DNA from: Prevotella micans DSM 21469 = JCM 16134
Lineage (GTDB): Bacteria > Bacteroidota > Bacteroidia > Bacteroidales > Bacteroidaceae
Assembly: GCF_000614105.1 (NCBI RefSeq)
Contig: NZ_BAKH01000026.1
Location: forward strand, 1-37,330
Direction: 5' to 3'
DNA length: 37,330 nucleotides
In this document: positions 5,229-35,053 of the stretch, piece after piece
Layout: each line of letters opens with the position of its first letter
Position numbering within the stretch: position 1 is the stretch's first letter
The notes under the pieces: generated by a model
Seen by the model: the letters and a program-made list of their open reading frames with translations, nothing else
Databases searched by the model: none
Told to the model about the DNA's origin: nothing
Made by a program: the position numbers and the translations under genes

Positions 5229-5604
5229 AAGGGAAGTTCCGAAGATACTATACAATAATTAAAATTATATTCGGAACTTCCCGTAGATATAAAAAGTAGT
5301 AAAAATGATTTTAGGAGTTTTCCAGAAATATAAAACAGTAATGTAAATGAAGTTCGGAACTTCCCCGAGATATAAAGAGTAGTAAAAATAATTTTAGGAG
5401 CTTTCCGGAAATATAAAATAGTAGTGTAAATGAAGTTCGGAACTTTCCGAAGATATAAAATAGTAATGAAAATAATATTAGGGACTTTCCAGAGATGTTA
5501 AATAGTAGTTTAAATTATATTCGGATTTTTCCGGAGATATAAAACAAGAATTTATATGCTCTTTGAGTTTGCTAGGAGATATAAAACAATAATGATTTCT
5601 TTTT
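5229..5604. repeat. Nine tandem AT-rich units of 41-43 bp in an alternating two-type pattern
   Basis: Units begin at about 5230, 5271, 5313, 5354, 5396, 5437, 5480, 5521 and 5563. All share a core TTCCgGAGATATAAAA followed by A/T-rich sequence. Units starting TCGGAACTT alternate with units starting AGGAGTTTT or AGGGACTTT, giving an 84-bp higher-order period. The GGAAcTTCC core is itself a short palindrome, and units 1 and 2 contain a perfect 12-bp inverted repeat (5231-5242 with 5271-5282). No coding frame is evident. The remaining intergenic DNA (5110-5228) shows nothing else. Confidence 0.92.
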
Positions 5605-11228: not shown

Positions 11229-11294
11229 CCTTAGTCCGGGACCAAGGTACCCTTAGTCCCATACCGAGGTACCATCAGTCCCGGACTGATGTAG
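11229..11294. repeat. Three tandem 22-bp units
   Basis: Units at 11229-11250, 11251-11272 and 11273-11294. The first two share CCTTAGTCC and a terminal AGGTAC; the third is more diverged and contains the near-perfect palindrome CATCAGTC-CCG-GACTGATG. Degenerate related sequence continues to about 11315. The array lies about 165 nt upstream of the next gene start. Confidence 0.7.
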
Positions 11295-16713: not shown

Positions 16714-18496
16714 ATGAAGAAGATATCCTTCATCCTGATGTTGCTTTTCAGTCTCGTGGCAATGCAGATGCAAGCTGCGACGACCCACTGTTTCTGGGGA
16801 TATTGTAACAGTAAAGTCTCCGGCGAGTTCGGGTCAAAGACTAAAGCCAAAGGAGCTATCTATATTCCTGCAGACATAGCGCAACTTTATAAAGGCAAGA
16901 CTATTTCTTTTGTAAAGGTCGGTCTAGCAGCTATGGCGAATTCAGTGAATGTGTTCATAACTAAAGACCTCAACGGAACAAGCATAACAACTAAAAAAGC
17001 AGGAATGCTTTATAACGGTTGGAATGAAGTGAAGTTGAGTTCTCCTTACACCATCGATGGCGAGGCTTTCTATATAGGCTACAGCTATGAAGGCGATAAC
17101 GCTTCCATGGGACGCTCGGACATGTATTCGGAAAATGGTTGCTGGGCCGACCTGGGAGACGGTTGGAAAAACTATGCAACTGAAAAGGAGTACAAAGCGC
17201 TTGCATTGACCATTCAGGCTAAAATATCAGGCGAAAATATGCCGAAAGACCTGTGGATTTACAGCAATCGCGACTTTATTGTAAAGAAAGGCGCACCATG
17301 CAAGCTTCCATTCGGAATAATGAACATGAGCCCCGTGTAGCCCGTAATTTGCAGGTTGGCTACAGTATTGACGGAGGAGCCGAAACTGTTGCCGACTTCA
17401 AAACTACGATGGGAGCTAACACCGAAAAGGAATTCTCGTTCGACCATCCCGGATTCAACGAAAGTAAGACTCACACCATAAAGTTCAGATTGATTTCGGT
17501 AGATGGTGCAGCTGACAGTTATTCGGGTAACGACACCGTGACATCGAAGATAAAGGTGATGGACGCCGTGCCACGCCAACGCTTCGTAGTTGAAGAAGGA
17601 ACCGGAACATGGTGTGGATGGTGTCCGATGGGAATAGTTGCCCTCGACCAGCTATCAAAGAAATATCCCGAAACATTCATCGGTATAGCTGTGCATAAGA
17701 GCGATCCGCTTCAAACCACATCCTACAATAGCATGAGCTTTAGCGGATATCCCAAATGCTACATCAACCGTAACCTCGACTATCCCACACAACCCGAGGC
17801 TTCTGGATTGGAAGCATCGCACAATAAGGCCGTAGCTATAGCTCCTAATGTGGGAGTAGAAGTGAAAGCCGAATTTACAGATGCATCGAAGAAGAAGATA
17901 AATGCGAAAGCCCTCACCACTTTCTTTACGGCACAGAATGGATTGAAATACAGAATATCATTCGTGCTAGTCGAAAACGGAATAAAAGGCTACACGCAAG
18001 CTAACTACTTCGCCGGAGGAGGACAAGGCAATATGGCGGATTCGAGAGTCTTCCATCTTATGCTTCTATCGACATGGATCATGTTGCCCGGATGAACTAC
18101 AGCTACGAAGGCTTTAAAGAAAGTGTTCCAACAAGCGTACAGGCCGACGAGACAACCGAATATGCAGCTGTACTCAACGTTCCGGCTAGCATACAGCATG
18201 CCGACAGTCTACATCTTGTTGCATTGTTAATAAACAGCAAGGGCCTAATCGAAAATGCCGCACAGGTTAAGGTTCTGCCCGACCCCGTGACCGGAATAAC
18301 CGATAATGCTAAACTCCTGGCTCCGGAAATCATTTTTGCAGACGGACGTTTTGAGCTTCAGGGCTTCAACGGCACCATGACCGTATACAATTCCAATGGT
18401 CAGATTGTTCCGAACGGTTCGTTGCCGCGCGGAATATATGTTGTTAAAGTAGTGGCCGAAAACACTTCTTTCGTTCGCAAGATGTTTGTAAAGTAG
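16714..18496 (+). pseudogene. Omp28-like T9SS-exported protein with CxxC, broken by two frameshifts
   Basis: Three overlapping open frames form one gene: 16714-17340, 17253-18095 and 18074-18496. They join if one base is restored near the CCCC at 17331-17334 and another near 18053-18058; the repaired length is 594 residues with no leftover bases. The product has a signal peptide (ending near MQAAT), a beta-sandwich region like that of the upstream paralog, a CARDB-like segment, and an Omp28/thioredoxin-like domain with EEGTGTWCGWCPMGIVALDQL (CxxC near residues 300-303) and the later SGYPKCYINRN, where the Pro matches the cis-Pro side of a thioredoxin fold. It ends in a T9SS sorting domain (GTMTVYNSNGQIV, LPRGIYVVKVVAENTSFVRKM). 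The start is 14 nt after the preceding gene. Either the gene is inactive, or the sequence carries base-calling errors. Confidence 0.75.
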
Positions 18497-18544: not shown

Positions 18545-18586
18545 AAATCCACTGCAAGTTCAGGAGAGCTTGCAGTGGATTTTTTT
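18545..18586 (+). terminator. Strong intrinsic terminator of the exported-protein operon
   Basis: A 14-bp perfect stem (18545-18558 with 18569-18582) with a 10-nt loop runs into a seven-base T tract. It lies about 50 nt after the last stop codon. The stem core TCCACTGCAA recurs in the terminator at 34334-34371. Confidence 0.92.
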
Positions 18587-18850
18587 GTATGCGGCTTGTG
18601 TGACCGTTCGAGCTTATATTCGTTGGGTTTAGTCTAACCGGCGCAATTCTTTCCGAGTATGGGGTGTAACCATCGGTTCGAAGAGTCCGCTCAAGATGAA
18701 GAACTTCGCCCGAACGATGCTCTTATCTGTGAAGACGGATGATACCAGATGTCCGTATCATAGCGCTTTACGGCAAGAGGATATCTCACGAATCCTACAA
18801 GTCGCCCGTATAGGAAATCCTTAATGTCCAAGTAGAAACGTACCGCCATT
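18587..18850. other. Intergenic stretch with no recognised feature
   Basis: No convincing open frame, promoter box or RNA gene is visible between the terminator and the 22-bp array. Confidence 0.6.
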
Positions 18851-19122
18851 CGCATGCTCTTGGGATTATATCCGTATGCTCTTGAGATTATATCCGCATG
18901 CTCTTGTGATTACATTCGCATGCTCTTGTGATTACATTCGCATGCTCTTGTGATTACATTCGCATGCTCTTGTGATTACATTCGCATGCTCTTGAAATTA
19001 TATACGTATGCCCGTAAATTTCTTCCCGTATGCGCATAAATTTCTTCCCGTATATAAATTTGCGGGAATACGTATATAAATTTACGGGCATACGGGAAGA
19101 AATTTACGGGCATACGTATGCG
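18851..19122. repeat. 22-bp-periodic tandem array that reverses orientation in its centre
   Basis: Seven units start exactly every 22 bp (18851, 18873, 18895, 18917, 18939, 18961, 18983), the core being CGCATGCTCTTGTGATTA; four consecutive units are essentially identical. The 22-bp phase continues through five further units of a second type (19005, 19027, 19049, 19071, 19093) built on CGTATGCCCGTAAATTTC. The later ones are reverse complements of the earlier ones, producing a 31-bp perfect inverted repeat (19002-19032 and 19089-19119) with a 56-bp spacer. There are no unique spacers, so it is not a CRISPR array. It lies between the ends of two convergent transcription units. Confidence 0.93.
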
Positions 19123-19379
19123 TTTTCAAGAGGAAATGAGAGTTGCTCTGAAACAAGGCGTTTCAGTGATTTTCAGAACCTTGAATACCGAGGGGAGGAA
19201 CAGTAGGAAGCTAGCAGTCAACGAGGTTAGCCGAAGTGCGGAACTTGCTAATGCTAATATCTCTCTCTTAAAAGAACTCTCTGATTTTTCATCCGTCGGG
19301 TTCTTGATGGGGGCTTAAGCGGATTCTTAAGCCGAACTTATGTTGGAAGATGGGGCAAGGCAATCCCTTGCGTAAGTGT
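19123..19379. other. Intergenic stretch with a small hairpin near the cdsA end
   Basis: The only structure I see is an 8-bp hairpin, GGCTTAAG-cggatt-CTTAAGCC, at 19312-19333, about 47 nt beyond the cdsA stop. It has no T tract. A 66-codon open frame at 19118-19318 starts inside the repeat arm and looks spurious. Confidence 0.5.
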
Positions 19380-20243
19380 TCAGATTAGGGTTATGCTGTA
19401 GAGGTAGACCGTAGCGGCGGGGATGGCTAGTAGGGCGGAGTCGAAGCGGTCGAGCATTCCGCCGTGCCCGGGTAGGATGTTGCCGCTGTCTTTTATGCCG
19501 AGGGTGCGTTTGAATAAGCTTTCAATGAGGTCGCCCCAGGTGCCGAATATAGATACGGTGAGGCCGAGACCCATCCATTGAATTATGCTGAGTTGGTGTG
19601 GGTCGGCCTCGGTGTTGGTTAGGTGCCCGATGAGAGCTGCAACGCCTACAACGAGAATGCTTCCGCCGATGCTTCCTTCCCAGGTCTTGGCGGGACTGAT
19701 GCGGGGGAAGAGCTTGTGGCGGCCGAGGAGGGAGCCGGTGCAATAGGCTCCGGTGTCGTTTGTCCAGAGGAAAATGAAGATGCTCAGCGGGAGAAGCATG
19801 TCGATGGTGAGTTGTCCGTCGGGACGTACTTGGAAGGCGATGATGTTGATGAGTGAGAGGGGGAGGGCGATGTACATTTGGGCGAGCATTGTGTAGGCCC
19901 AGCAGTTTATCGGGTTGGGGTTTTTCATGTAGAGCTCGGCGATGAGCAGATAGATTATGGTTAGGATGTAGGGTACGAAGACGCTGAATCCTTCGACAAT
20001 CCCGAGCCTTAATGCGGCTGTTGCTACAAAGAGATATACTCCGGCTACGGTTGAGATGAATCGGTTTGTTCTTACGTTTTCAACTTGTGACACGAGGTTT
20101 GAATATTCCCATATTGTTGCGCCTGTTATAATGGCGAAGAGAACTACCATGTAGTGGGGTTTCAGGAAGCCTGCGACCATCACGGCTACGAAGAGTATGC
20201 CGGTGATGGTGCGAGTTATTAGGTTTTTTTGTTTATCGGTCAT
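19380..20243 (-). CDS. cdsA: Phosphatidate cytidylyltransferase (CDP-diacylglycerol synthase)
   Basis: A 287-residue polytopic inner-membrane enzyme that makes CDP-diacylglycerol from CTP and phosphatidic acid, the branch point of phospholipid synthesis. Multiple hydrophobic segments cover most of its length. The C-terminal CdsA signature is present: SLFKRTLGIKDSGN, then LPGHGGMLDRFDS, with the conserved acidic residues that bind the metal-CTP. PAKTWEGSIGG is also typical. Length is normal. Its ATG overlaps the end of ftsH by 11 nt, so translation of the two is probably coupled. It is the last gene of the minus-strand cluster. Confidence 0.96.
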   Translation of the reverse strand: MTDKQKNLITRTITGILFVAVMVAGFLKPHYMVVLFAIITGATIWEYSNLVSQVENVRTNRFISTVAGVYLFVATAALRLGIVEGFSVFVPYILTIIYLLIAELYMKNPNPINCWAYTMLAQMYIALPLSLINIIAFQVRPDGQLTIDMLLPLSIFIFLWTNDTGAYCTGSLLGRHKLFPRISPAKTWEGSIGGSILVVGVAALIGHLTNTEADPHQLSIIQWMGLGLTVSIFGTWGDLIESLFKRTLGIKDSGNILPGHGGMLDRFDSALLAIPAATVYLYSITLI

Positions 20244-34934: not shown

Positions 34935-35053
34935 GCAGCTGGCGGATATACGATCCGTTGCTGACAGAAGTAGGACTTGTAGTTGACGAAAGTACGACTT
35001 GTGGACTACGGAAGTATAATCCGTGCCCCACGAAAGTACGACCCGTCGACCAC
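34935..35053. repeat. Five tandem 22-bp units plus a partial one
   Basis: Units at 34935, 34957, 34979, 35001 and 35023, each exactly 22 bp, with a partial sixth at 35045. Conserved positions give an ACGgAAGTAcGACtT core; the first letters (GT) and the last pyrimidines recur in most units. It lies between the start of the HU-like gene and the end of the fimbrillin-like gene. The sequence is unrelated to the arrays at 11229 and 18851, but the period is identical. The remaining flanks (34853-34934 and 35054-35230) hold no visible gene. Confidence 0.85.

Follow-up and report, generated by a model that had tools for sequence, protein, structure and literature searches.

The window analyzed here is a 37,330-nucleotide stretch of Prevotella micans DNA in which a 22-bp tandem array reverses its orientation midway and stays in phase. 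How can a block of units be turned around within an array without loss of register, and is this an accident of one locus or the property of an element? A sequence-only reading had placed the array at 18851 to 19122, which is roughly right, the direct part beginning at 18847 and the palindrome ending at 19132. As that reading proposed, the array lies between convergent genes: a plus-strand open reading frame (ORF) with a weak match to a T9SS sorting domain (18074 to 18496) and minus-strand cdsA, encoding phosphatidate cytidylyltransferase (19380 to 20243), both point toward the array, ending at 18496 and 19380, respectively. No ORF of at least 100 amino acids was found inside the array.

Register and symmetry of the window array

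The direct part (18847 to 19000, plus strand) consists of seven tandem 22-bp units, variants of CATTCGCATGCTCTTGTGATTA when laid out in 22-base rows; seven is the count at this locus as assembled in a draft of 107 contigs (2.42 Mb, 92% complete). Two forward units of the type CGTATGC..TAAATTTC follow at 19001 and 19023, and the units at 19045, 19067, and 19089, together with the end unit at 19111, are reversed. Positions 19002 to 19032 (plus) and 19089 to 19119 (minus) are exact reverse complements over 31 bp, just as had been claimed. They form the core of a larger palindrome, whose 65-nt arms (18989 to 19053, plus, and 19068 to 19132, minus) are 85% complementary and are separated by 14 nt (19054 to 19067). 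On the right lies a plus-strand tail (19129 to 19185), about 80% identical and common to six other copies of the element described below. Within the tail, a terminator-like hairpin without a long T run (19148 to 19166, plus strand) has a 7-bp stem and the loop AAGGC; among five copies checked for lattice-placed tail hairpins, the window copy is the only one with a perfect tail hairpin of at least 6 bp. Terminator-like sites in the region number two, with 1.2 expected.

The register is fixed by ATACGTAT nodes centered at 19005.5, 19071.5, and 19115.5, i.e., at intervals of 66 and 44 bases; the dyad center at 19060.5 lies 55 bases (5 × 11) from the first node. The 22-bp phase thus runs unbroken across the flip. 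Because the node is its own reverse complement, units of either sense can join there, and because it is identical on both strands, a block of units is reversible about an 11-bp half-lattice point, which gives an in-phase flip. More generally, in an array of period p, a reversal that keeps the register must turn about a p/2 lattice point, and the window center is five half-periods from the first node. Simple slippage alone does not make such a flip, and on this point we concur with the earlier reading. The comparison with shuffled sequence that it proposed shows a far more stable single-strand fold: the predicted DNA fold of 18988 to 19128 has −48.4 kcal/mol, versus −14.75 ± 2.72 kcal/mol for 200 dinucleotide shuffles (z = −12.4), and the predicted RNA fold of 18960 to 19200 has a z score of −13.1 against dinucleotide shuffles.

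Dispersed copies in the P. micans genome

The flip is no peculiarity of this locus. Searched as DNA, the P. micans assembly gave 21 matches, and a covariance model (R1) built from five copies identified nine loci at E values of 5e-8 or better, on contigs C36, C77, C82 (the window), C83, C87, C88, C99 (twice), and C106. A search with the tail added a tenth locus, on C71. This family (here, family A) therefore comprises ten loci on nine contigs, the window included, all with matching inverted ends. Since ten loci share these ends, the flip is inherited element architecture, and the window array is one copy of a dispersed, noncoding, intergenic palindromic element. Each copy starts near GCTCTTGAAATT, continues with forward units and then reversed units, and ends with the inverted version of its start. 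The tail is present in seven of the ten copies (C36, C71, C82, C87, C88, C99 at 40794, and C106) and absent in three.

Copies differ in their interiors. C83 and the C99 copy at 16982 each have other sequence in place of one linker; the C77 copy contains five copies of another 22-bp palindromic unit; and the C71 copy is a composite, in which family A ends enclose a middle made up of a second array family. The left terminal unit (GCTCTTG..ATTA type), single in the C99 copy at 40672, is sevenfold in the window copy, which differs from the rest in this respect. The seven direct units, which had been read as a separate unit type, are thus a tandem amplification of the same element's left terminal unit. 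With the C88 copy left out as it lies at a contig end, the neighboring genes are convergent in two of nine cases, co-directional in seven, and divergent in none. The second array family itself has a dyad around ATCATCATGATG with flanking 22-bp TACGTATATAAATAGAAGGG units, and it was seen at L016, L020, L039, L043, L044 near base 1500, and L215 at 1700 to 1960.

Among 60 genomes of the genus, R1 had matches in eight, including P. micans; in one of the matches (G049 contig C222), no array was present in the stretch inspected. R1 is bound to sequence, so the genomes that it missed are no argument against 22-bp arrays there. The family A DNA pattern had five single matches in a collection of genome contigs, in unrelated organisms, which we took as chance, and none in viral contigs; no similar DNA was found in plasmid or phage collections.

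Matched arms and a possible template-switch origin

In eight copies, the left arm is identical to its own right arm at 31.6 of 35 positions on average and to the right arms of other copies at 28.2 of 35 (permutation P = 0.0001). Double changes, in which both partners of a pair differ, occur in 10 of 39 pairs (19 cells in seven copies); none of 500 shuffles reached this number of cells, and the signal was gone when the partner was slid by 1 to 3 columns. Template switching creates and mends inverted repeats (PMC8794818; PMC8604942), and better arm agreement within a copy is what template switching in DNA would produce. The portions of the literature on such quasipalindrome mutation used here also describe double changes in both arms and inversion of the spacer (PMC8794818; PMC8604942; PMC7202029). 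It is known as a mutation process and not as a source of fixed-pitch arrays, and its part in family A is inferred from sequence.

Our best account is that the window array is probably a palindromic element that is dispersed in the genome and whose symmetry is maintained by strand switching, in a lineage that favors one intergenic pitch. The ends of the element are inverted copies of each other, its inside consists of 22-bp units joined at the palindromic ATACGTAT node, and the tail stands on the right. Reversed blocks and matched arms would come from template switching at the palindromic nodes during replication, while unit number would change by slippage or unequal exchange. The copies may then serve as a natural record of strand switching, to be read by comparing one arm of each palindrome with the other. 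Some observations count against this account. (i) Inversion of the center, which the earlier reading proposed to look for, was not seen: in the seven copies that were aligned, forward linkers never lie to the right of reversed ones, and none is freshly inverted. (ii) The tail differs among copies.

Orthologous arrays show change between species. A 22-bp array downstream of cdsA is common to G003 and G042, the genomes of two related species, and it differs by indels of 45 bp in one direction and 22 bp in the other, so that the change in unit number for which the sequence-only reading proposed a test does occur. Its array blocks are 88 to 98% identical and the adjoining nonarray blocks 80 to 94%; a second array common to the two genomes is 96 to 98% identical, with the next intergenic stretch down to 65%. 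The two arrays thus seem to be more conserved than part of the adjoining intergenic DNA, a pattern that is not expected from mutation bias alone and that also counts against our account. A third locus differs by 230 bp, including the left half of a dyad, that are present in G042 and absent in G003, with no clean empty site. In G017, the closest relative by cdsA (76%), no 22-bp array is present at the orthologous spot. By a raw hand count between G042 (L148, L149, and L150) and G003, four of seven synteny breaks or large indels fall in array-bearing intergenic regions, and a fifth falls in an intergenic region with a weak array.

The 22-bp pitch and competing explanations

We surveyed the intergenic DNA of 20-kb stretches (100 to 400 kb sampled per genome; ORFs of 90 amino acids or longer called mechanically) for matching at fixed lags. 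Windows matching at lag 22 amounted to 13.2 per kb in P. micans, 6.6 in G016, 3.4 in G040, 42.7 in G042, and 16.0 in G017, with harmonics at 44 and 66 in these five genomes, and to 8.4 in Prevotella oral taxon 299, 12.3 in Parabacteroides distasonis, 6.6 in Phocaeicola massiliensis, and 4.3 in Bacteroides finegoldii. The control values were 0.45 per kb for 18 other Bacteroidales families (27 stretches, 18 genomes) and 0 in Escherichia coli K-12 and Neisseria gonorrhoeae (12.9 and 4.5 kb of intergenic DNA, respectively). Thus, the pitch stands out in nine of nine Prevotella/Bacteroides/Parabacteroides-type samples, thinly in two. For segments whose tandem lag was clear and fell in the range 12 to 40, the best lag was 22 in 70 of 99 segments from the nine samples (P. 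micans, 7/9; G016, 12/18; G040, 6/9; G042, 16/25; G017, 12/13; oral taxon 299, 11/11; P. distasonis, 4/9; Phocaeicola, 1/2; B. finegoldii, 1/3; the last two thus with one segment each), versus none of 5 segments from the other families. G118, from another genus of the same family, prefers lags 23, 46, and 69 in two stretches. One of its loci (L225, 3848 to 4116) is a 23-bp array of twelve units.

The pitch recurs where the unit sequences differ. Consensus units have a period of exactly 22 in 83 of 212 cases in the nine samples, versus 2 of 35 in other families, with the reservation that unit clusters were drawn loosely and that several of the units from G016 and oral taxon 299 have a motif in common, which makes them nonindependent. 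A dyad is common: in 43 of 70 arrays, the reverse-complement self-match exceeds that of 29 of the 30 column-permuted controls (about 4.5 arrays expected), G016 being weakest with 3 of 12. Unit sequences differ from genome to genome; in G016, G017, and oral taxon 299, many units within the genome share a genome-specific motif, and the five 22-bp units of P. distasonis are different at each locus. FtsH of the window is 74.8% identical to that of Prevotella oral taxon 299, 71.3% to Phocaeicola, 69.1% to Bacteroides, and 63.5% to Parabacteroides (records of the plasmid collection). Judging from these surveys, the window element is part of a wider set of 22-base-spaced intergenic palindrome arrays in some gut and oral bacteria, even where sequences are unrelated; we found no description of such sequence-free arrays in Bacteroidales in the open-access literature searched.

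Array-bearing segments, pooled from five genomes, are most frequent between convergent genes (37 of 113), followed by co-directional (51 of 358) and divergent (9 of 120) ones (convergent versus divergent, P = 1e-6). The trend holds within length classes of at least 200 bases, i.e., in segments of 200 to 400 bases (10/24, 13/97, and 2/40, respectively) and of more than 400 bases (26/40, 36/74, and 7/25). The P. micans sample alone has no convergent enrichment (1/23, 11/103, and 1/27), and oral taxon 299 does not avoid divergent regions (5/15, 14/80, and 5/14); these two samples count against our best account as well.

These data bear on the possibility that the arrays are a selected protein-binding platform, with dyads two helical turns apart on one DNA face, to which a dimeric nucleoid protein or a topoisomerase would bind where transcription units end. 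In E. coli, BIMEs are regarded as binding sites of gyrase. A platform would fit the conserved pitch, the unrelated units of one pitch inside Parabacteroides, the pooled placement, and the apparent conservation of the two orthologous arrays. However, it is difficult to imagine one protein binding to sequences that are unrelated, two samples depart from the placement trend, G118 prefers 23, and common descent or mutation bias could also fix a pitch. We therefore regard the platform as conceivable but rather unlikely. Under the preferred reading of a strand-switched element, any action of the arrays would be as double-stranded DNA, not RNA, at transcription-unit ends, and a pitch of about two helical turns may be favored because all dyads then lie on the same side of the helix; these are the least certain steps. 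The 22-base pitch possibly stems from descent, from mutation bias, or, in the bold reading, from helical phasing. If helical phasing were true, spacing rather than sequence would matter to a bound protein. Taken further, and only tentatively, host-associated Bacteroidales might carry chromosome-wide intergenic dyad arrays of conserved pitch and free sequence, a structural code on one DNA face at transcription-unit ends that is renewed by template switching and is lineage specific (a sister genus and BrickBuilt of Porphyromonas gingivalis have 23 bp). If pitch and not sequence is kept, this would be a new kind of noncoding signal, widespread in gut and oral bacteria and overlooked because sequence searches cannot see such arrays. 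Why the spacing should be 22 bases is a question that can be tested.

Another reading, about as doubtful, is that of a miniature element (MITE) moved by an insertion sequence (IS) transposase, with the palindrome as transposition substrate, like BrickBuilt in P. gingivalis. BrickBuilt has a 23-nt unit, 19 copies, and IS5-type ends GAGACCTTTGCA, and the available part of its description (PMC4596501) resembles family A in that it is intergenic and dispersed, has a leader, variable spacerless tandem units, and a tail, is predicted to form long stem-loops, and has a copy number of the same order (19 versus ten). Family A likewise has a left end shared by its copies and a tail shared by seven of the ten, and it has the general MITE traits of dispersal, lack of coding, and inverted ends; its fixed ends, variable middle and tail, and the second array family within the C71 copy would suit a mobile element. 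However, terminal repeats like those of BrickBuilt/ISPg1 had no matches, at up to two mismatches, within 250 bp of the ten copies (0.34 expected), an ISPg3-like mini inverted repeat stands beside one copy only (C77), and target-site duplication was not established. It is the 22-bp unit, in place of 23 nt, and the missing IS5-like ends, not the letters of the unit, that set family A apart and led us to reject membership in BrickBuilt. Moreover, the mid-array flip, a rule in family A, does not appear in the part of the BrickBuilt description at hand (PMC4596501). BrickBuilt is the closest known system; family A would work like it without being a member. Mini inverted repeats ACGTGAGTTCGG...CCGAACTCACGT, similar to ISPg3/MITE239 ends, were seen beside a 22-bp array at L038 (1450 to 1495) and L045 (about 1680).

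REP/BIME elements are likewise palindromic extragenic units with neighbors in opposite orientation, located mainly between convergent and co-directional genes, in the excerpts consulted (PMC3733652; PMC2817692). Unlike them, the arrays described here have units joined without spacers at one pitch, and the unit sequence varies by genome and, in Parabacteroides, by locus. RAYT-type transposase (PF01797, the sole profile searched) is present in 27 of 40 genomes searched, but neither the P. micans genome (92% complete) nor G017 nor G003 gave a match, which argues against a MITE of this type, and RAYT-driven REP was rejected on the same grounds. A CRISPR array was rejected since the units abut without spacers.

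A structured RNA or a bidirectional terminator made from gene ends is a distinctly weaker candidate. It would account for the very stable predicted hairpin, the compensatory changes in the arms, and the position adjoining gene ends; in addition, transcription of BrickBuilt in places, and lacZ expression driven by its ends in E. coli, are described in the sections of that report used here (PMC4596501). However, a known structured RNA was rejected, with no Rfam match at the gathering threshold in the window, and a promoter at the element ends was rejected, with promoter-like matches there (2 found versus 1.9 expected) at chance level. The left gene has its own intrinsic-terminator-like site of 17 pairs before the array (18545 to 18582, plus strand), and between cdsA and the array of G003 and G042, a terminator-like hairpin followed by eye inspection has a T run. 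Furthermore, selection on an RNA hairpin would favor G-U over A-C mismatches, and the arms seem to show no such preference: in arrays between co-directional genes, 7 of 28 mismatches in mRNA sense are G-T and 10 are A-C, a small sample by which an RNA hairpin is disfavored and no more. Palindromic candidate RNAs of the human microbiome are intergenic motifs of 80 to 132 bp, two of them mostly or entirely in Bacteroidetes; the part of that work considered here treats them as terminators or possible REPs and mentions no 22-bp pitch (PMC8040213).

Last, the worry raised by the sequence-only reading that the reversed part is an assembly artifact, a chimera, could point to the draft state (107 contigs) and to the difficulty of assembling long palindromes, but it is hardly credible, since the same ends and flip exist at nine other loci and comparable arrays exist in the single-contig genome G016 and at orthologous places in G003 and G042.

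The window holds further repeats. Two short arrays with a 22-bp period (11229 to 11286 and 34963 to 35053) are unrelated to family A, two copies of an 84-bp unit, 94% alike, occupy the contig start (1 to 170), and a (TG)28 dinucleotide run lies near the contig end (37255 to 37311). An intergenic array at 5261 to 5544 is made of 42-bp (83-bp) units, and lags 41 and 42 are also strong in the P. micans genome. In P. gingivalis, 41-nt repeats are known from MITE464/PgRS, and tandem repeats of 22 and 41 nt are mentioned for strain W83, with no location given in the part of the report used here (PMC4596501).
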